A stretch of DNA of 24,260 nucleotides from a virus. This document shows positions 819 through 20,081 of this stretch, in pieces (position 1 is the first letter of the stretch; every line of letters begins with the position of its first letter). The notes under the pieces were generated by a model. That model did not search any database and had not been told where the DNA came from. It saw only the letters and a program-made list of their open reading frames with translations. Where the stretch lies: IMG/VR virus record IMGVR_UViG_3300031774_000148, positions 1-24,260 of that record; one strand, written 5' to 3'. The position numbers were made by a program, and so were the translations under genes.

Positions 819-3800
819 GTGAACAAACTTGTAGAAGAAATAATAAAACCGATTTTAGAAGCCAACTCAAATATTAAAAAAGTTGTTGGTGTATATGGTG
901 GTAGATTCCAACCATTTGGTCCTCATCATTATAAAACTTATAAGTGGTTGACTAAACAAGTTGACGAAGCATACATCACAACATCCAATATAAAGAAACC
1001 ACCAAGACATCCAATGAATTATAAAGAAAAAGTCAGACATATGACTAAAATGGGTGTTCCTTCAAATCGTATCATTGTAGAAAAAACACCTTATGTTGCA
1101 AATAACCTTTCAAAGAAATACAATAAAGATACAACAGCATTCGTTTATGTATTCGGTGCTAAAGATGCTGGTAGATTAGGTGGTAGTGGAAAATACTATA
1201 AAGATTATAAGAAGAATAAAAAGAATTTAGAAGGATTTGAAAAACACGGATATTATTTAGTTGCACCACATGTTTCAATATCAGTTGGTGGTAAAGAAGT
1301 AAGTGGAACATCAATGAGAGAATTACTTGGTTCAGATAAGTATGATGATAAGCAAAGAGCTAAGTTATTTAAAAAGATGTTTGGGTATTATGACAAAGGT
1401 GTATTTCAAATGATGGTGAATAAATTCAAAAAATTATTTGAATGGGATAATACAAAAGAAAAACCAAAAAATCCAAAACACTTTGATAAAAAAAACAGAG
1501 ATTTATTACAAGATGTTGAAAATTGGTTAAAAAAAGGTAGTAAAAAAGATAGAGAATTAAAGTTAAAGATAAGTAAATTATATTCTAAAGCCTTTAAACA
1601 AATGCCAGGTTCAGCAAATCAATTAAAGATAAGAAAAGAAATAGAAAAATTAAGAAATCAATTAAGTGAGGGAGTTGATTTACCAATAGAAATAGGTGAT
1701 ACTGTTAGAATGGGTAAATTTAAAAACAAAAAGGTTGTTATTAAAAAAATTGAATGGAATGAAAAAGGTGATTTACTTATAAACGGAAGACCAGCTATGA
1801 AATTCAGACTTGAGAAAAAAGCTGAAGTTGAAGAAGGTTATCCTAATGAAGAGGATATGAAAAAGATTAGAAAAAGAGTTAAGAAAGCAAGAAGTAAATC
1901 AGATAGTAGTAAAGAATATCAATATCATCCAATTGATGAATTTTTAATTCATACTGATATAAGTAAAATTTTTGAAGTTTCAAATACTGGAACTGATGGT
2001 ATTCAAGGTGTTGACTCTGGTCCAAGTTTAATGTTTAAAAATGCAGAACATTATAAGGGTAGAGGTGACATGGAAGCAGAAAAACTTGGTTGGATTGTTA
2101 TTAATTATATTTTACAAGGTGATGTAGATAGTTTACCACCAGATGAATCTGAAATGTTAGATGGGTGGCCAATGGGCCCACATAACTCAGTATCCTATTT
2201 ACCAGCCGGAATAGGAACAGGAACAACACCAAATAACCAAGAAAATCTAACTGGCGCAAAAGGATATGATAAGTGGGTTAGGGCTATGAGGTCAACGGCT
2301 GAAGAAGTTGGTTATGAATTAATGAAGTTTACAAAACAAGATAGAGATACAAGAAAACAAATCGCTAAAGATACTGTGGATACGATTAAACAACAAGAAA
2401 AAGAAGAAGTTGAAGAAAATGTATTCTCAAAAGATTGGTGGGATGATATTTTAACAGAAGTATCTGCTAAAACAAAAAAATTCAAACAAAAATTAATGAG
2501 AAGAGGTATCAAGATAAGATACGATAAAGAAAAAGCTCAACAAGACTTACAACAAAAATATGGTGGACAAGGTGAGGTTGTTGGTAAAAAGTTTGGATTA
2601 AGAAAAGCTTATTATGCAGTTCCTAAAAAAGGATTTAAGAAAGATACAAAACCAACAATTACAATCAATAAAAAGGAAATGGATAAATTACATACAGATA
2701 AACAGATTGAAAAAGGTAATTTAAGAGTATTGTATAAAGAGGGTTTATTAATGGAAGGTGGTGCATATGGACATATGGCTCATCCATTTGATGACAAAGA
2801 TTTAACATTCGGTGATTTAAAGAAAATTATTGAAAATGGTTTAGGTGGAACATTAAGTCGTGAAGATGGAGTTACAGAAAAACTTGATGGACAAAACATT
2901 ATGATAAGTTGGAAAGACGGAAAACTTATTGCAGCTAGAAACAAAGGACATATCAAGAATGGTGGAAAGACTGCATTGGATACAAAAGGTATTATCAGTA
3001 AGTTTAAAGGTAGGGGTGATATAAAAGATGCTTTTGTATTTGCTATGAAAGATTTAGAAAAAGCTATTAAGTCTTTATCAGATAAACAAAAAGAAAAGAT
3101 ATTCAATAATGGATATAACTTTATGAATTTAGAAGTAATGTGGCCTAAATCAGAAAATGTGGTTAATTACGATAAAGCTGAATTGGTATTTCACGGAGCA
3201 TTGGTTTACGATGATAAAGGAACTGTAAAAGGTGAAGTAAAAGGTAGTGGTAGAATACTTGCTGGTATGATTAAACAAAGAAACCAAAACATTCAAAAGA
3301 AATATTCAATTGGTAAACCTGTGTTTTTAGATGTTCCAAAACATCAAGACTTTAGTAAGATGAAAAGTAAGTTTTTAGGAAAATTATCTAAATTACAATC
3401 TAAATTTGGATTATCAGATAATGATACATTAGGTTTATATCATCAGAAATGGTGGGAACAATTTATTATAAAGAATATAGGGCAACCATTACCAAATGTA
3501 TTAAGGGGATTAACTTTACGATGGGCTTTCTTTGATAAATCATTTAAAATACCAGAAATTAAAAAACATATAAAGGATGAAAAAAAATTAGAATGGGTAT
3601 TAAAGTTTGATAAACAAAATCATCAAAAACAAGTGAAAGAAAATATGAAACCATTTGAAGAATTGTTCTTTGGAGTTGGTGCGGAAATATTAAAAAATGT
3701 AAAAGGATTTATGGCTGCTAATCCAAAGAAATCAGTTCAAAGTATTAGAAAGAAATTAAATACATCAATAGAGAATGTAAAAGCTAGTGGTGATAAGAAA

Positions 3801-3965
3801 AAATTAAATACATTAAAATTACAATTAGATAAATTAAACAAGATTGGTGGTGTTGATGCTATAGTTCCAAGTGAAGGAATAGTGTTCAAGTATAAAGGAA
3901 AGACTTATAAATTTACAGGTGCATTTGCTCCAATAAATCAAATCACAGGTTTAATTTATTTTTAG
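819..3965 (+). CDS. Nucleotidyltransferase-ligase fusion, possible protease-processed polyprotein
   Basis: A 1048-residue multidomain protein; GTG start with AGAGG at 808-812. Residues 22-170 form an HxGH-superfamily nucleotidyltransferase: GRFQPFGPHH (28-37) matches the GxFxPxHxGH nucleotide site and SGTSMR (162-167) the distal S/TxxR motif, as in NMN adenylyl- and cytidylyltransferases. Residues 285-545 hold a small beta domain (IGDTVRMGKFKNKKV) and a region I cannot assign. Residues 647-1048 look like a covalent nucleotidyltransferase of the DNA/RNA ligase type: EKLDGQ (687-692, predicted AMP-accepting K688), FMNLEVMW (768-775), FHGALVYDD (791-799), EGIVFKYKG (1019-1027) and KTYKFTG (1028-1034). 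Candidate gp21-type sites are ILE14/A, QLSE284/G, ILTE547/V and LLME646/G; the last falls just before the ligase domain. Substrates are unknown; an NAD- or RNA-repair role would be inference. The large insert before motif IV is unusual for small RNA ligases. Confidence 0.85.
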   Translation: MNKLVEEIIKPILEANSNIKKVVGVYGGRFQPFGPHHYKTYKWLTKQVDEAYITTSNIKKPPRHPMNYKEKVRHMTKMGVPSNRIIVEKTPYVANNLSKKYNKDTTAFVYVFGAKDAGRLGGSGKYYKDYKKNKKNLEGFEKHGYYLVAPHVSISVGGKEVSGTSMRELLGSDKYDDKQRAKLFKKMFGYYDKGVFQMMVNKFKKLFEWDNTKEKPKNPKHFDKKNRDLLQDVENWLKKGSKKDRELKLKISKLYSKAFKQMPGSANQLKIRKEIEKLRNQLSEGVDLPIEIGDTVRMGKFKNKKVVIKKIEWNEKGDLLINGRPAMKFRLEKKAEVEEGYPNEEDMKKIRKRVKKARSKSDSSKEYQYHPIDEFLIHTDISKIFEVSNTGTDGIQGVDSGPSLMFKNAEHYKGRGDMEAEKLGWIVINYILQGDVDSLPPDESEMLDGWPMGPHNSVSYLPAGIGTGTTPNNQENLTGAKGYDKWVRAMRSTAEEVGYELMKFTKQDRDTRKQIAKDTVDTIKQQEKEEVEENVFSKDWWDDILTEVSAKTKKFKQKLMRRGIKIRYDKEKAQQDLQQKYGGQGEVVGKKFGLRKAYYAVPKKGFKKDTKPTITINKKEMDKLHTDKQIEKGNLRVLYKEGLLMEGGAYGHMAHPFDDKDLTFGDLKKIIENGLGGTLSREDGVTEKLDGQNIMISWKDGKLIAARNKGHIKNGGKTALDTKGIISKFKGRGDIKDAFVFAMKDLEKAIKSLSDKQKEKIFNNGYNFMNLEVMWPKSENVVNYDKAELVFHGALVYDDKGTVKGEVKGSGRILAGMIKQRNQNIQKKYSIGKPVFLDVPKHQDFSKMKSKFLGKLSKLQSKFGLSDNDTLGLYHQKWWEQFIIKNIGQPLPNVLRGLTLRWAFFDKSFKIPEIKKHIKDEKKLEWVLKFDKQNHQKQVKENMKPFEELFFGVGAEILKNVKGFMAANPKKSVQSIRKKLNTSIENVKASGDKKKLNTLKLQLDKLNKIGGVDAIVPSEGIVFKYKGKTYKFTGAFAPINQITGLIYF

Positions 3966-3980
3966 ATATTTATATATACA
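3965..3980 (+). promoter_or_regulatory. Candidate late promoter, copy 1
   Basis: ATATTTATATA at 3966-3976 followed by TACAAGAAT, in the 30-nt gap between the fusion gene and the zinc-ribbon gene. The same 11-mer occurs at four other intergenic sites. The gap leaves only about 16 nt to the ATG at 3996, including the Shine-Dalgarno sequence AAGAGG, so the leader would be very short. No transcription data; the call rests on recurrence and position. Confidence 0.6.
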
Positions 3981-10456: not shown

Positions 10457-10771
10457 GCAGATGGAAATAAGCAAGTACCTAATAGTCCAACAATACAAGG
10501 TACTCAAGTTAGTCGTGCTGCTTGTCCCGTAGGAAATACTGTAGTAAAAAGACCATCATATGTTAACATTAATACTGTTGGCACATATGCTTTTTTATAT
10601 GAAACAACAGCTTCTATTGGAGGAACGACTACTGCTGGTTTTGTAACTGGTTCAATTGTTGTAGCAAATCATGGTAATGTAAAATTAGATATAAATCCTC
10701 TTGCTTGGACAAGATGTGATGCTGCAAATGCAGTCGGACAAGTAACATTTGTATATGTGAGGACAAGATAA
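10442..10771 (+). CDS. Small probable structural protein with capsid-like start
   Basis: 109 residues, beta-rich and Gly/Thr-rich (TYAFLYETTASIGGTTTAGF, VTGSIVVANHGN), with no signal peptide or membrane segment. It ends in a strand, VTFVYVRTR. Its translation-start region is nearly identical to that of the major capsid gene, implying very high expression. A small, highly translated beta protein beside the prohead protease could be a head decoration or outer-surface protein; this is inference, and no family is recognised with confidence. Its stop overlaps the protease start by 1 nt (TAATG). Confidence 0.7.
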   Translation: MSNYVADGNKQVPNSPTIQGTQVSRAACPVGNTVVKRPSYVNINTVGTYAFLYETTASIGGTTTAGFVTGSIVVANHGNVKLDINPLAWTRCDAANAVGQVTFVYVRTR

Positions 10772-11397
10772 TGAAAGATATAATTGTAGATTACATACCA
10801 TTTGAAATAACACCTCAACAAATCAATGAGTCAATGAAAAATAATGATGGAAGATTAGTTGTTAAGGGTGTATTGCAAAGAGCAGAAGCTAAAAATCAAA
10901 ACGGAAGAGTTTATCCAAGAGAAACCTTAGTCAGAGAAGCCAAAAAATATGCTGAGATTCAAATTGCTGAACGAAGAGCATTAGGTGAACTTGACCATCC
11001 AGATTCTTCTGTTGTTAACTTAAACAATGTATCACATAATATACTTGAAATGCATTGGAAAGGTAATGATTTAGAAGGAACTGTTGAGGTTCTTGGAACA
11101 CCAGCTGGAAACATCTTAAAAGAATTATTTAAATCAGGTATTAAACTTGGTATATCTTCGAGAGGACTTGGTTCAGTAAAAGAAATGAATGAAGATGATT
11201 CAGTAGAGGTTCAACCAGACTTTGAACTTATTGCTTTTGATTTCGTATCAAATCCATCTACACACGGAGCTTTCTTATCTCCAACAAATGAAGGAAAATT
11301 AAACGAAAGTGCGGGTGCTTGTGATTTAGCAACTGGTACTTGTTGTCACGATTGTAAAGTTGAATCTATAATTAACGATATATTCAGAGGAGAATAA
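10771..11397 (+). CDS. Prohead core protease (gp21-like)
   Basis: 208-residue serine protease of the T4 gp21 family (Peptidase S80), close to T4 gp21 (212). It degrades the scaffold and trims capsid and internal proteins after (L/I)xE. Family motifs: KNQNGRVYPRETL (41-53), GELDHP (72-77, predicted catalytic H76) and LGISSRGLGSV (126-136, predicted nucleophile S129 or S130). The stretch FDFVSNPSTHGAF (156-168) is the usual next conserved block. Near the C-terminus, E-G-K-L-N-E179/S180 fits the enzyme's own cleavage rule and the cassette repeated in the polyproteins nearby, so it is the probable self-processing point. The released tail would be 29 residues with C184, C191, C192, H193 and C195, a possible metal site. 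The upstream gene overlaps by 1 nt. Confidence 0.93.
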   Translation: MKDIIVDYIPFEITPQQINESMKNNDGRLVVKGVLQRAEAKNQNGRVYPRETLVREAKKYAEIQIAERRALGELDHPDSSVVNLNNVSHNILEMHWKGNDLEGTVEVLGTPAGNILKELFKSGIKLGISSRGLGSVKEMNEDDSVEVQPDFELIAFDFVSNPSTHGAFLSPTNEGKLNESAGACDLATGTCCHDCKVESIINDIFRGE

Positions 11398-11398
11398 G

Positions 11399-11707
11399 AT
11401 GGATTATAAATCTTTAATGGGATATAATGATAAGAAGAAAAAAGAATCAAAACCTAAACAGAATAAAGTATTGGAATCTATCAAAGATGAGTTTAATATA
11501 AATGAAGGTCCTGCTTACGAATACAAAAAACATTCCAAAAAAATAGACAAATCATTAAAAGAATTACAGAAAAATTATTTAGAATTTTATGAAACTTTAA
11601 GAAAAAAAGGACTTCACGATGAAGCTGCTGACTTTCTTGATAACTATAAAAAGAATGTAGTTGGATTTACTAAAAAATATAAAAAAGATTTCGGAAATTT
11701 ACTATAA
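11399..11707 (+). CDS. Small helical head-core or internal protein candidate
   Basis: 102 residues, very lysine-rich. A basic leader (KKKKESKPKQNKVLESIKDEF) is followed by NINE36/GPAYEYKKHSKK, matching (L/I)xE/G for gp21. The remainder is a helical hairpin-like sequence (KIDKSLKELQKNYLEFYETL; DEAADFLDNYKKNVVGF). If cut, a 66-residue basic helical protein would remain. I recall the GPAYEYKK segment in other marine phage proteins of unknown function. It starts 1 nt after the protease stop and overlaps the next gene by 1 nt, so it is in the core of the head operon. Packaging in the head is inference. Confidence 0.7.
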   Translation: MDYKSLMGYNDKKKKESKPKQNKVLESIKDEFNINEGPAYEYKKHSKKIDKSLKELQKNYLEFYETLRKKGLHDEAADFLDNYKKNVVGFTKKYKKDFGNLL

Positions 11708-12468
11708 TGCCATTCAAATCCGAAAAACAACGGAAATGGATGCACGCAAATGATCCTGAAATGGCCAAGAAATGGGAAAAGAAAGAGAAAAAAATGAAAC
11801 GAGTTAAAGAATTGATAAAGAAAATGGTTCGTGAAGAGTTGGCTGAAATGAAAGAGTCAAAACTTAATGAATTTAACAAGTCACATTTCCTTAATCTAAT
11901 TAAACAAGAAATAGAAAGTCTTAAAGGTCAGATTGCATATGCTAAAGATAAGGTTAATTATAAAGGAACAGCTGATTGGGAAAAGAAAGAATTTAAAGCA
12001 GTTTTAAAAGATAAGGTAAAAGATTTATCTAAAACAATAAAACATTATAAAAGAGTTCAGAAACTTAAAGAAGGAAAACTTACAGAAGCTAAAGAACCAC
12101 TATGGACAAAAGAAACTGTTAAAGATGCAATCAAACAAATCAAAAAAGGTTTAAAAAATGCAGTTCCTTACTTAGATGGTATTGGTACTGGTTTTGGTGG
12201 TGAATCTATTATAGGTAAAATATCATTAGATGATAAAAAAACTTGGACAAATAATATATTAGAAAATTCAAGATGGGCTTTAATACATTTCCATCCTGAT
12301 GGGACACTTGATACGATTCGTATGCATGGTTGGGGTGATTTTAAAACAAGAAAAAAAGTTCCAATTTTAAGAAAATCAAAAAACAAAAGTATAAAACAAG
12401 CTGTTGATAGAATGGGTAAATACTTTACTGTTGTTAGATTAAAACACCCAGATACAAAGGGTAAATAG
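11707..12468 (+). CDS. Putative internal-head polyprotein with two cleavage cassettes
   Basis: 253 residues in three modules. Residues 1-55 begin MPFKSEKQRKWMHANDPEMA, a short basic motif I recall from many small phage proteins, followed by a helix (RVKELIKKMVREELAEM) and SKLNE55/F. Residues 56-127 are a helical basic module (NLIKQEIESLKGQIAYAK...KTIKHYKRVQKL) ending E-G-K-L-T-E127/A. Residues 128-253 are a mixed alpha/beta module (NSRWALIHFHPDGTLDTIRM...KYFTVVRLKHP) of unknown fold. The 20-nt DNA encoding the second site is repeated exactly at 16411-16430. The gene lies just downstream of the protease. Cleavage into pieces of about 55, 72 and 126 residues is predicted, not shown; an uncut protein is the alternative. 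Confidence 0.7.
   Translation: MPFKSEKQRKWMHANDPEMAKKWEKKEKKMKRVKELIKKMVREELAEMKESKLNEFNKSHFLNLIKQEIESLKGQIAYAKDKVNYKGTADWEKKEFKAVLKDKVKDLSKTIKHYKRVQKLKEGKLTEAKEPLWTKETVKDAIKQIKKGLKNAVPYLDGIGTGFGGESIIGKISLDDKKTWTNNILENSRWALIHFHPDGTLDTIRMHGWGDFKTRKKVPILRKSKNKSIKQAVDRMGKYFTVVRLKHPDTKGK
12070..12090 (+). repeat. E-G-K-L-T-E-A cassette, copy 1
   Basis: GAAGGAAAACTTACAGAAGC plus T, identical over 20 nt to 16411-16430 and one mismatch from 16738-16758; a looser copy (GAAGGAAAATTAAACGAAAG) lies at 11290-11309 in the protease gene. All are in the same reading frame relative to the protein motif. Confidence 0.85.
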
Positions 12469-12469
12469 A

Positions 12470-12494
12470 ATGATTAAATTAAAAGACATATTAA
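12470..12494 (+). repeat. Targeting-leader repeat, copy 1
   Basis: ATGATTAAATTAAAAGACAT and the next 5 nt (ATTAA), identical to 22551-22575. The copy at 12817-12840 differs at one base over 24 nt. The conservation includes synonymous positions, so it goes beyond protein constraint. Confidence 0.85.
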
Positions 12495-14813: not shown

Positions 14814-15860
14814 ATGGCTAAAGGCTTAGATTGTGGAACAAGTTATTATATAACAGCCACAGAAAAAAGTATGAAAAAACAAAGGAATGTATTCTTAACC
14901 GTTGACGGAGATGCAAATCAAGTTAAACGAATGTTAAAAAGACAAAGAATACCTTTTGTAGAAAAAGCAGGTAAGGTTCACATCGTTGGACAACATGCTT
15001 TTAACTACGCACAAATATTTAGTACGACAGAATTAAAGAGACCAATGTCTCAAGGGTTATTAAACCCGAAGGAAAAAGATGCACTACCTGTATTGAATGC
15101 GATTATAGGTGAGTTGGTTGGAAAAGCTAAAAAAGATGAAGTATGTGTTTATTGCATACCAGCAAAACCAATCGACCAAACAAGAGAAGTTTCTTATCAC
15201 GAAGATGTGTTGAAGCAGATTATTGAAACATATGGATACAATGTCAAAGTTATAGAGGAGAGTGTTGCTCTCGCTTACGAAGGCCTTGTAGATAATGACT
15301 TGACGGGGATAGCAATATCTATGGGTGCCGGGATGTGTAATGTATGTGTGATGTATCAAGGGATGAGTGCACTCTCCTTTTCTGTAGCAAGAGGTGGAGA
15401 TTGGATAGATGAAAATGTAGCAAGTGATTGTGGTGTTACAAAGGCAAAAGTGATAAGTGTTAAAGAGAACTCAAGTAAGTTAGATTTAACAAAAAGTGCA
15501 ATAAATGATATTTATAATGAGGGAAGTGATGAGTATAACATCATTAATGCTATTAGAAGTTATTACGGAGCATTAGTGAATTACTTGTTGACAAACCTAA
15601 CAAATCAGTTTAACAATGCTGAAAGTGTACCAAACTTTCCTGAATCCATACCAATTGTATTTGGTGGTGGAACAAGTTTAGTAAAGGGTTTTATGGAAGT
15701 TGTAGGGGAACAATTTAATCAAGATGAATTTCCTATTGATGTGGAGAAATTTACATTAGTGGAAGATGCTCACACAGCAGTCGCAAGAGGTTGTTTGAGT
15801 GAAGCACAATTAATTGAAGAAGAGGAGCAAGAGGGTGAAAATCAAGAAGAGTCAGCTTAA
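14814..15860 (+). CDS. Actin-like ATPase (MreB/ParM/Hsp70 superfamily)
   Basis: 348 residues with the actin-fold nucleotide motifs in order: phosphate 1 LDCGTS (5-10), connect/phosphate region KVIEESVALAYEGL (about 144-157), phosphate 2 ISMGAGMCNVCVMYQG (about 167-182), SVARGGDWIDENVA (about 190-203, like the GGD-hDE segment of MreB) and adenosine motif PIVFGGGTSLVKGF (about 277-290). In phosphate 2 the usual first Asp is Ser (I-S-M-G-A-G), so hydrolysis may be altered. The acidic C-terminus follows a CLSE/A match at about residue 330. Probably filament-forming; DNA or capsid positioning would be inference. Its codon use looks slightly different (more GGG, GTG and ACG), hinting at transfer. 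Its membrane-anchored neighbour at 14501 and location inside a head operon are unusual. Confidence 0.8.
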   Translation: MAKGLDCGTSYYITATEKSMKKQRNVFLTVDGDANQVKRMLKRQRIPFVEKAGKVHIVGQHAFNYAQIFSTTELKRPMSQGLLNPKEKDALPVLNAIIGELVGKAKKDEVCVYCIPAKPIDQTREVSYHEDVLKQIIETYGYNVKVIEESVALAYEGLVDNDLTGIAISMGAGMCNVCVMYQGMSALSFSVARGGDWIDENVASDCGVTKAKVISVKENSSKLDLTKSAINDIYNEGSDEYNIINAIRSYYGALVNYLLTNLTNQFNNAESVPNFPESIPIVFGGGTSLVKGFMEVVGEQFNQDEFPIDVEKFTLVEDAHTAVARGCLSEAQLIEEEEQEGENQEESA

Positions 15861-16986
15861 AGAATTAATCAAACAAACTATCGTTGATTTAACTGAAAAA
15901 ACATTTGGTTCAAAAGCACAATATGATGCTTATAGAAAAAAACATAACTTGAAACCCGGTAGTAAACATAAAGTAGCTGGTAAAACAGTTACTGTTAGAG
16001 ACACTAAAAAAATATCAAAGTCTGCTAAGAAAAAAGCTGACAAATTTGCAGCTGCTCAAAATGCTAAATTAGATGCTGCTGAAAAAGCAGCAAAGAAAAA
16101 AAAGAAATCAACATATACTCATAAAGGTGATGATAAATTGGTTAGTCTTAAAGTTAGAAAAGAATCAGTTAGTAAAAGTAGAAGATACACTGTAAAAGAA
16201 GTAAGAACATGGATGAAAAAATTAGAAGAGAATCGTTATAAGAAAGTATATAATTCAGACGCTCGTAGAGTTGCTTGGATGGTGAATAACGAAGGTGTTG
16301 AATTATCTGAAATGCCACAATCAATGAGTAAGAAATGGACAAAGGCTCAATACGGAAGAGAAAGATATTTGGCTACTGAGTTTTTGAAATCTAAATCAGA
16401 ACAAATGACTGAAGGAAAACTTACAGAAGCAATTAGTGGTGCTGATAGAAAAATACTATTCATTCTTGTTAGAGAAATAGTTAGAAATCTTAAATCACAA
16501 ATTAAAAATATGGATGTGAATAATAAATCTCATTTGAATAGAGTTGGTAGTTCAATTCTTGCTATCATAAGAGCTATGTCATATTCACCAGATAATGTGA
16601 ATTATAAAAACTTTAAAAAGTATTTTCCAAAGAACTTTAATAGTAAATTAATTCAAAAGAAATTAAAACAATTCCATAGTCAAAACGACAAAGTCCAAGT
16701 AACATTAGTCACACAAGCTATAAAGAATGAACTTGGTGAAGGAAAACTTAAAGAAGCTTATAGGTCTCAATCAATATTTTTTGATAAAAAAGATAAATCA
16801 AAATTAGAAAAACTTTTAAAAAAACATAAAGGAAAATTTCCATTCAATCCATCAGGTGAATCAGTTGTAAATTGGTCATTAAATGATAAAGGTAGTAAAG
16901 GACTTGAGTGGAGTGGTATTCCAAAAGCAAATTATAATAAAGCAGTAGAATTTTTTATGAAATACAAACTAAATCCAAGAGGTTAA
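15835..16986 (+). CDS. Putative internal-head polyprotein with three cleavage-type sites
   Basis: 383 residues from the GTG at 15835, chosen because GAGGAG (15822-15827) lies 7 nt upstream; it overlaps the ATPase gene by 26 nt. The leader (KIKKSQLKELIKQTIVDLTE21/K) resembles an amphipathic targeting helix. Residues 22-198 are Lys/Ala-rich with a tract of Ala-Lys repeats (about 60-92) and end E-G-K-L-T-E198/A. Residues 199-307 are a helical module (KILFILVREIVRNLKSQIK) ending E-G-K-L-K-E307/A. Residues 308-383 are a small basic alpha/beta module (SQSIFFDKKDKSKLEKLLKK). The two cassettes are nearly identical in DNA to the one at 12070. Predicted pieces: 21, 177, 109 and 76 residues. The module functions are unknown. 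Confidence 0.72.
   Translation: MKIKKSQLKELIKQTIVDLTEKTFGSKAQYDAYRKKHNLKPGSKHKVAGKTVTVRDTKKISKSAKKKADKFAAAQNAKLDAAEKAAKKKKKSTYTHKGDDKLVSLKVRKESVSKSRRYTVKEVRTWMKKLEENRYKKVYNSDARRVAWMVNNEGVELSEMPQSMSKKWTKAQYGRERYLATEFLKSKSEQMTEGKLTEAISGADRKILFILVREIVRNLKSQIKNMDVNNKSHLNRVGSSILAIIRAMSYSPDNVNYKNFKKYFPKNFNSKLIQKKLKQFHSQNDKVQVTLVTQAIKNELGEGKLKEAYRSQSIFFDKKDKSKLEKLLKKHKGKFPFNPSGESVVNWSLNDKGSKGLEWSGIPKANYNKAVEFFMKYKLNPRG
16411..16431 (+). repeat. E-G-K-L-T-E-A cassette, copy 2
   Basis: GAAGGAAAACTTACAGAAGC plus A, identical over 20 nt to 12070-12089 although 4.3 kb away in a different gene. Confidence 0.85.
16738..16758 (+). repeat. E-G-K-L-K-E-A cassette, copy 3
   Basis: GAAGGAAAACTTAAAGAAGC plus T, one mismatch from copies 1 and 2; encodes the second site of the same polyprotein. 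Confidence 0.8.
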
Positions 16987-18367: not shown

Positions 18368-18395
18368 TAGGAGATAATAAATGTCAAACTATGTA
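18368..18395 (+). promoter_or_regulatory. Strong ribosome-binding site of the major capsid gene
   Basis: TAGGAGATAATAA then ATG and the first codons; one mismatch in 28 nt from 10429-10456. AGGAGA spacing is 6 nt to the ATG. Confidence 0.75.
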
Positions 18396-20081
18396 AACGA
18401 TGCGTTATTAGACGCGTCTCCTTATAAAAAACAACAAGACGAATCAAAACATCTTGTCTCTAAATGGGATAAGACTGGTCTTCTTGATGGTTTGAATGAG
18501 GATTTTCAAAAAAGTGGTATGGCTGTTATGCTTGAAAACCAAGCAAAACAACTTATCAATGAGAACTCTGCAACTGGTGGAGGTGCTGGTGCTGGTAGTG
18601 CTGGTACGGCTGGTTCAGAGGAATGGTCTGGTGTTGCACTTCCGTTAGTTCGTAGAATTTTCGGTGAGATTGCAGCTCAAGACTTTGTAAGTGTACAACC
18701 AATGAACTTACCATCTGGTCTAGTATTTTACTTAGACTTTAAATATGGTACAAACACTGGTGTGTATGGTAACTCAAATGGACTATCTGTTGGTTCAAGT
18801 GTAGATTCACTTGCTGGTAAATCAGGTCCTAACTCTCCATCAGGTTCATCTGCTCCTTACGGTGTTGGTGGTTTGTATGGTGAAGGTAGATATGATTACT
18901 CTATCAATGTTAAAGCAGGTAATGCTTTAGCACTTGGTACAGTACAAGTTGGTTCAGAATCAGGAACTGCTGCTTCAACAGCTTCAGCTGATTATAAAGA
19001 CATCAACTTCAACCAAGAGTTTAGTGCTTCTTTAGCGGCTTCTAAACTTATCAAAGTTACTTTTGATGCTAATGCATTAGATAGTAAATTTGATGCAAAA
19101 TCTGTTAGAGCTATTAATGTTGTTAGTGGTACAGCTGATATTAATTCTGTATTACCACAATTTACAAAACTAGCTTCAAATGGAACTGATGTAACATTAG
19201 TTGTATCTGCTTCTTCATTGGCTAACTTATCAGGCGATTCAATCAAGATTGATATGCCGTTACAACCAACTGAAGCTGATAGAGGTGACTTTGAAGATAC
19301 AACAGGAACAACTGCTGCTACAATAGGTATTCCTGAAGTTGATTTACAACTTAAATCTCAAGCTATCGTTGCGAAAACAAGAAAACTAAAAGCTGTATGG
19401 TCTCCTGAGTTAGCTCAAGACTTGAATGCTTATCATTCTGTTGACGCTGAAGCTGAGTTAACTTCAATGTTAAGTGAGTATATTTCAATGGAAATTGATT
19501 TAGAAATACTTGATATGTTGATTACAGATGCTACTACAGTTGATTACTGGTCAGCTACACCTGGTGAAGATTATGAAGGTGCAGGTGCTACTGAAGCTAA
19601 CTGGAACATTACAACATTCTACGGAACAAGATATGAATGGTATCAAACTCTTTTAGGTAAAATCCAAAAGGTTTCTAACGAAATCCAAAGATTAACTATG
19701 AGAGGTGGTGCTAACTTCGTAGTTGTTTCACCGACTGTTGCTACTATCTTGGAATCAATTCCTGGATACTCAGTTTCTACAGATGGAAATAAATCTCAGT
19801 TTGCTGCTGGTGTTCAAGTTGCAGGAAGTCTAAATAATAGATTTACTGTTTATAAGAACCCATATATGACTGAAAATACTGTACTTGTAGGTTTCAGAGG
19901 AAGTAACTTCCTTGAAACAGGTGCTGTATATTCTCCATATGTACCACTAATTATGACTCCAATGGTATATGATCCAGAAGACTTCACTCCAAGAAAAGGT
20001 GTGATGACTCGATATGCTAAGAAAATGATTAGGCCTGAGTTCTATGGTAAAATCCATTGTAAAGACTTAAACTTAGTATAA
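18381..20081 (+). CDS. Major capsid protein (gp23-like)
   Basis: 566 residues, a little longer than T4 gp23 (521). After an N-terminal propeptide rich in charged residues, the sequence MLENQAKQLINE61/NSATGGGAG is the expected gp21 processing position (T4: FLTE65/A), with Asn rather than Ala after the cut. Then VQPMNLPSGLVFYLDFKYG (105-123) is the conserved gp23 block (T4 VQPMNSPTGQVFALRAVYG). Residues about 170-290 are a Ser/Ala/Thr-rich beta insert, a candidate surface-exposed domain. C-terminal segments PYVPLIMTPMVYDPEDFTP and MIRPEFYGKIH are also family-like. It follows the scaffold by 16 nt and is closed by the terminator at 20106. Confidence 0.96.
   Translation: MSNYVNDALLDASPYKKQQDESKHLVSKWDKTGLLDGLNEDFQKSGMAVMLENQAKQLINENSATGGGAGAGSAGTAGSEEWSGVALPLVRRIFGEIAAQDFVSVQPMNLPSGLVFYLDFKYGTNTGVYGNSNGLSVGSSVDSLAGKSGPNSPSGSSAPYGVGGLYGEGRYDYSINVKAGNALALGTVQVGSESGTAASTASADYKDINFNQEFSASLAASKLIKVTFDANALDSKFDAKSVRAINVVSGTADINSVLPQFTKLASNGTDVTLVVSASSLANLSGDSIKIDMPLQPTEADRGDFEDTTGTTAATIGIPEVDLQLKSQAIVAKTRKLKAVWSPELAQDLNAYHSVDAEAELTSMLSEYISMEIDLEILDMLITDATTVDYWSATPGEDYEGAGATEANWNITTFYGTRYEWYQTLLGKIQKVSNEIQRLTMRGGANFVVVSPTVATILESIPGYSVSTDGNKSQFAAGVQVAGSLNNRFTVYKNPYMTENTVLVGFRGSNFLETGAVYSPYVPLIMTPMVYDPEDFTPRKGVMTRYAKKMIRPEFYGKIHCKDLNLV

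Follow-up and report, generated by a model that had tools for sequence, protein, structure and literature searches.

A putative head-protease-cut polyprotein of T4-like phages that might carry an injectable RNA-repair kit, with an RNA ligase possibly released as two fragments in one lineage

In phage T4 the prohead protease gp21 cleaves after L/I-x-E, and internal proteins carry targeting propeptides of 10-19 residues (PMC9026906). Giant phages (SPN3US gp245, phiKZ gp175) have many packaged proteins that are cut after Glu, together with long propeptides containing multiple sites (PMC10052503, PMC9026906). Enzymes related to nucleotide transfer have been found in cyanophage virions: S-SM1 virions contained a putative citidylyltransferase (PMC3037559), and a cytidylyltransferase was detected in those of S-CREM2 and NMNAT-like proteins in those of three more cyanophages (PMC10665884). 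In the description of the polyvalent proteins, 2H domains were not seen associated with RNA ligases (PMC5512222).

The window (the whole stretch of DNA analysed, a 24.3-kb virus record of 24,260 nucleotides) covers the head region of a marine T4-like myovirus, with genes for terminase, portal, S77 prohead protease, Volactin and major capsid protein. Searched by tblastn, the terminase and capsid protein have Microcystis phage Mel-JY01 and Flavobacterium phage immuto among their best matches (50-55% identity). The gp21-like prohead protease, the presumed cutter, is encoded at 10771-11397 (Peptidase_S77, Pfam PF03420, E 3e-28) and the major capsid protein gp23, with a candidate maturation site QLINE61/N (a slash marks the predicted cut), at 18381-20081 (Pfam PF07068, E 4e-80); both genes, like all features of the polyprotein given below, are on the + strand. 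An actin-like protein of the Volactin family (PF25216, E 7e-76) is encoded at 14814-15860 within the head gene cluster. Internal GKLTE/A and GKLKE/A or LKE/G repeats were observed in 11707-12468 and 15814-16986, the products of which may be further cut polyproteins.

The initial annotation had placed a protein of 1048 residues at 819-3965, and this reading frame was confirmed, with a GTG start preceded by AGAGGTG. The T4-type late promoter TATAAATA was not found upstream of the gene. The octamer TATTTATA is enriched in the window (15 copies over both strands versus 4.3 expected); five + strand copies, at 3967, 9224, 17265, 20148 and 20848, are intergenic, lie 29-105 nt upstream of the next gene, share the context ATATTTATATA and are possible late promoters. 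The start of the contig truncates the neighbourhood of the polyprotein gene, and kinase, HD and CCA modules are absent from the polyprotein of the window.

The protein begins with a leader, MNKLVEEIIKPILE/A (residues 1-14; 819-860), a candidate capsid-targeting propeptide. The nucleotidyltransferase that follows (residues 15-208; 861-1442) ends in KKLFE208, where BLAST homology stops in many relatives (at ~208) and where E208 (1440-1442) forms the candidate module-border site KLFE/W. The middle of the protein consists of a variable helical module, delimited from relatives and an AlphaFold2 model, which ends in QLSE284/G (residues 209-284; 1443-1670); a KOW-like small beta module, named by motif resemblance, with an uncertain site VEE339/G (residues 285-339; 1671-1835); a module with a border at 364-385 and the end KIFE386/V (residues 340-386; 1836-1976); a 'VDSGP' module present in many relatives, ending in ILTE547/V (residues 387-547; 1977-2459); and a variable, poorly predicted segment ending in LLME646/G (residues 548-646; 2460-2756). 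The candidate site at E646 (2754-2756) abuts a divergent ligase-type nucleotidyltransferase starting GGAYGHMAHPF (residues 647-1048; 2757-3962). The KOW-like module resembles HTVC008M gp128 by motif and has its matches in separate ORFs of the split-ligase group described below. The four gp21 sites proposed initially, PILE14/A, QLSE284/G, ILTE547/V and LLME646/G, are all present at these residues, but the list was incomplete, since KLFE208 and KIFE386 are also on module borders and VEE339/G is possible.

In a Pfam scan of the 1048-residue protein the only family above cut-off was CTP_transf_like, in residues 15-208 (PF01467, E 2e-6), and no known polyvalent marker domain was found; a search of PDB with the whole protein sequence gave a best match of just E 0.31. 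The N-terminal domain has the HIGH-type Rossmann fold of NadM/NMNAT (Z 12.5 over 164 residues), and its best fold matches include a bifunctional NMNAT/ADP-ribose pyrophosphatase (Z 12.5). An SxTxxR-like motif, SGTSMR, is located at residues 162-167 (1302-1319). Of the HxGH nucleotidyltransferase that had been described, the fold was retained and the motif was not: the HxGH position is occupied by GPHH (residues 34-37; 918-929), in which the first His is missing. Most relatives have GxHH in the family tally, and HKGH, HRGH or HAGH are confined to distant relatives. Because GPHH replaces HxGH, catalysis by this domain is putative, and GPHH may be inactive; the domain shares the NMNAT fold, and its membership in the NMNAT family is unproven.

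The KxDG ligase-type domain predicted directly after site 646 was located, with motif I as KLDG at residues 688-691 (2880-2891) and motif IV, PSEGIVFKY (1017-1025), together with motif V, K1031-F-T1033, at 3867-3917. Motifs I (KxDG), III (E) and IV (EG) of the Rnl1/Trl1 type are represented by K688, E772 and E1019. KxDG, E772, EG1020 and K1031 are conserved in all or nearly all family members, and in the extended set K688, D690, G691, E1019, K1031 and T1033 are each conserved in at least 97%. Motif V reads K1031-x-T1033 throughout the family and differs from the KxK of the Rnl1/Trl1 type. The large insert reported between motif IIIa (about 791) and motif IV was found to span ~225 residues, mostly predicted helix, and is kept across the family. 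No Pfam ligase model matched the 1048-residue protein, and the ligase profile gave only chance-level matches among PDB sequences. Membership in Rnl1 or DUF6267 was considered and is not claimed, because the profile comparisons were non-significant, even with distant relatives added (hhalign to T4 Rnl1, 0.5-0.6%).

When the model of the ligase domain (mean pLDDT 72.5) was compared with PDB structures, the best match was a weak one to Trl1 (Z 5.8), and the top rows were mainly tRNA/RNA ligases. In BFVD, beyond close relatives, most named matches were RNA ligases, the RM378 ligase being first, with non-significant E-values. From its motifs and this model, the C-terminal domain appears RNA-ligase-like with a weak Trl1/Rnl1 resemblance, its ligase family membership being unproven. 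The structural matches also included AsfvLIG (Z 5.0-5.1), another DNA ligase (5.4) and an unrelated RNA methyltransferase (5.0). The DNA ligase rows, and the place of DNA ligases within the nucleotidyltransferase superfamily, would agree with a packaged and cut polyprotein which heals and seals the ends of the injected genome; this is very unlikely, as fungal and archaeal RNA/tRNA ligases occupy more of the top rows and tRNA-specific CCA-type modules occur in relatives.

A pattern scan of IMG/VR yielded 104 relatives of the 1048-residue protein, and a scan with the ligase profile yielded at least 549 stretches encoding relatives among the 600 matches listed. In named phages tblastn gave three matches, of which the Mel-JY01 one (polyprotein WWT39297.1, with GGLGGHM after IIAE) is annotated as 'cytidylyltransferase like protein'. 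The 'NadR' protein of phage immuto, in which an NTase lies between other modules, was examined as a relative and rejected, tblastn giving no match to the 1048-residue protein. The constant parts of the family are the NTase (1-208) and the ligase (643-1048), while the middle is variable: one relative (L023) has both ends and almost no middle, and another (L311) has the reversed order, ligase then NTase. Recurrent architectures are kinase-NTase-ligase, the commonest larger set, CCA-NTase-ligase, NTase-Nudix-ligase, NTase-KOW-ParB-ligase and HD-kinase-NTase-split ligase. The architecture tally displays several domains in one polypeptide and modular exchange, its KOW, ParB, zincin and Pol-beta labels being regular-expression landmarks rather than family matches. 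Pfam hints below the curated cut-off were obtained for ParB_N (L082) and an MTPAP-like domain (L035). The partner modules in relatives comprise a CCA-type module (PolyA_pol, E 6e-30), HD, Nudix and a kinase, which was aligned to T4 PseT by hhalign at 92%. The N-terminal part of one product (L078:4076-7531) looked Ntn-hydrolase-like by eye alone and gave no match in Pfam.

The kinase, HD, CCA-type and Pol-beta-like partners suggest RNA end repair, with NAD metabolism as a live alternative, and NMNAT plus Nudix fits both equally well; RNA repair is given about an even chance of being the role. In the alternative, a polyprotein equally packaged and cut would serve NAD+ metabolism, its NTase (in some cases with Nudix) refilling NAD+ drained by host defences and its ligase-type domain adenylylating a non-RNA target. 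The match of the NTase to the bifunctional NMNAT/ADP-ribose pyrophosphatase and the fusion of Nudix in L037-L041 favour it, and the NMNAT-like proteins of cyanophage virions have been interpreted likewise (PMC10665884). It is nevertheless judged improbable: the partner modules suit RNA ends better, the NTase is without the first catalytic His, and the predicted fold of the ligase ranks nearest to tRNA/RNA ligases.

The protein contains 11 [LI]xE sites. Their number was rejected as evidence of cleavage, the motif being short, common and also present in uncut proteins (the terminase has 7 versus 5.5 expected from shuffling), and position and conservation were examined instead. Across 50 related polyproteins with 319 module borders in all, 80 borders have an [LI]xE site no more than 3 residues away, versus 21 expected (500 shifts, maximum 36), the borders of related proteins being non-independent. 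Of 16 related records, 15 share with the window a gene for an S77 prohead protease. As modelled at full length by AlphaFold2 (mean pLDDT 59.5), the NTase and ligase are ordered, and the poorly predicted stretches, with pLDDT <50 at 209-223, 331-343, 385-414 and 506-654, contain most border sites. Site 284 is within a block of pLDDT 56, and the non-border sites 88, 672 and 913 fall within predicted strands or helices or immediately next to them. The possibility that the sites are buried in folded domains had been raised at the outset; the border sites were found in low-confidence stretches or at helix ends. This evidence is modest, because the full-length model is weak overall and low pLDDT from a shallow alignment does not prove disorder.

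Leaders like MNKLVEEIIKPILE precede non-homologous modules in relatives, such as a kinase (MDKLTEFLVKPFLTE/G) and a KOW-like protein (MSNKLTEWLVKPLLE/D). In total, MNKLVEEIIKPILE and MIKLKDLLxE-type leaders were identified before unrelated sequences in 78 ORFs belonging to 38 sequence clusters, including the window genes at 12470, 12817 and 22551. The 14-residue leader is therefore a candidate for a short transferable N-terminal element with a putative targeting function. Packaging of the polyprotein in the capsid is considered probable. The cyanophage virion proteins lend it indirect support, since they belong to another T4-like branch and the HTVC008M version of the cytidylyltransferase has no obvious leader site.

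Among 119 distinct contexts of the ligase border (before GGxxGHM), 89 have E at P1 and all the others, 30, have M; P3 is L or I in 118 of 119 and P2 is free. At the kinase border P1 is E in 86 of 86 cases, whether the kinase is a short gene or fused in a polyprotein, and P3 is L, I, V or F. Free-standing ligases were identified in distant large phages, each retaining a short leader and a site, ..LILE/GG in L083 and ..PILE/GG in L315 (about 26% identity to the query). In one further sequence (L265:2405-3660) the ligase reading frame is broken after MNLEIM, possibly by a sequencing frameshift.

In about 20 contigs (L046-L066) the ligase gene is split and permuted. The C-terminal part starts after a new site, MLNE/, LLSE/, LMSE/ or LIKE/GKLIAARN, where intact proteins read WKD/GKLIAAR, so that the new [LI]xE/G site falls exactly at the break in the ligase. 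The catalytic lysine lies in the N-terminal part, a separate ORF of ~80 aa that starts 612-910 nt downstream of the C-part and has its own site LNE/GGAYGHM (LLE/GG in L061). It is tentatively proposed, with rather less than an even chance of being correct in full, that a polyprotein of a widespread group of T4-like phages yields an injectable RNA-repair kit and that in this lineage the RNA ligase consists solely of two protease-released fragments, one with the catalytic lysine, which must unite to be active.

The homologues that have no Glu at the ligase border, a circumstance named initially as evidence against cleavage, are the 30 Met contexts, and in all 30 a Shine-Dalgarno-like sequence is followed by an ATG in frame. 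They read AAGGAG-TTATTA(C/T)T(T/A)-ATG-GG or close variants, and in a slightly larger set the AAG GAG codons are present in 29 of 33 Met cases versus about 5% expected from codon use. The arrangement may be an alternative way to the same free ligase end. In these lineages the exact site is lost, which makes packaging of the ligase less clear there, and in 18 of 33 an [LI]xE is retained upstream at a distance of 5-32 residues (20% expected). In the window the ligase GG is preceded by GAGG-8 nt-ATG-GAA, with the ATG two codons before GG, which makes an internal ligase start possible there as well. By their sequences, the split group, the free-standing ligases and the Met contexts would each, in a different way, give rise to a ligase part whose free N-terminus is defined.

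The same starts, always in frame, in 30 of 119 contexts, and the GAGG and ATG of the window, could be read as signs of an ordinary uncleaved multidomain enzyme, from which free ligase is made by internal initiation and in which [LI]xE, frequent in proteins that are not cut, is structural or due to chance. This explanation is unlikely, given the restriction of the ligase-border P1 to E or M, the invariant E of the kinase border, the new E/G site at the split point of the ligase, the recurrence of leaders on unrelated genes and the excess of sites at module borders. Comparison with several hundred loci supported the reading of the protein as a polyprotein cut at predicted sites. It likely functions as a polyprotein that the head protease matures, and it probably belongs to the class of prohead-protease cargo.

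The best explanation, to which a little better than an even chance is assigned, is a protease-cut and capsid-delivered RNA-repair kit. The 14-residue leader would bring the polyprotein into the prohead core, where the S77 protease would cut after [LI]xE at module borders, freeing the nucleotidyltransferase with the NMNAT fold, the small modules of the middle and a ligase with the mature end GGAYGHM. The freed modules would be packed alongside the DNA and then injected. Polyproteins of the family and their neighbours add, as modules that could be cut out likewise, a PNK-like kinase, HD phosphohydrolase, CCA-type nucleotidyltransferase, Pol-beta-like NTase or Nudix enzyme. The result would be a kit for RNA (probably tRNA) end repair, in which ends are healed, lost nucleotides restored and breaks sealed, and which may, for example, counter tRNA-cleaving RNases of the host. 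Made in advance, such a kit could act ahead of phage gene expression. The sequences themselves show the modules, the sites at their borders, the conservation of these sites and the protease gene. Cleavage, packaging, injection, an RNA substrate, enzyme activity and counter-defence are all steps that we infer from comparison.

Eukaryotic RNA viruses and retroviruses are well known for polyprotein processing. If the explanation is true, tailed phages deliver several enzymes at once by this means, and RNA repair takes place at genome entry and not after early expression, which bears on how phages withstand tRNA-cutting defences. An annotation rule would also follow, Glu-ended module borders and MIKLxxLLxE-type leaders marking capsid cargo in this phage group.

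No description of such a head-protease-cut RNA-repair polyprotein was found in the literature, which was covered in part. The nearest resemblance in fold and motif is to fungal Trl1 and to T4 Pnkp plus Rnl1, which share the logic of ligase and kinase (with or without phosphoesterase); the present protein differs in having no significant sequence match to them, motif V as KxT, the ~225-residue gap between motifs IIIa and IV, an NTase partner and a gene beside head genes. In gene content the closest system is gp127-gp130 of HTVC008M (Kyanoviridae), where KOW-like, kinase and cytidylyltransferase genes are likewise adjacent and the kinase is about 41% identical to that of L052. There, however, the genes are separate, and the KWDG protein is a DUF6267 member with no significant match to the ligase described here. 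This protein, gp127 (L085:4236-5468), adjoins the KOW-like, kinase and cytidyltransferase genes and possibly represents a second ligase-like cargo family. Polyvalent proteins (PMC5512222) likewise combine several domains, exchange enzyme domains and have packaging and injection predicted for them, and some contain ParB-like or zincin-like segments, as in the polyproteins here (landmark labels); their processing was proposed to be by built-in zincin peptidases (PMC5512222), whereas the sites here fit a separate prohead protease. The T4 internal head proteins (Alt, IPI-III) have in common with this system a short propeptide at the N-terminus that ends in [LI]xE, an S77 protease and a T4-like head cluster, but they are single units from which terminal propeptides are removed, in contrast to chained modules with sites between them. 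With the giant-phage head proteins is shared the cutting of packaged proteins after Glu by a prohead protease, predicted here; apart from the self-cut of the protease, all identified cleavages in those phages yield N-terminal propeptides, while in the polyprotein they would free several enzymes.
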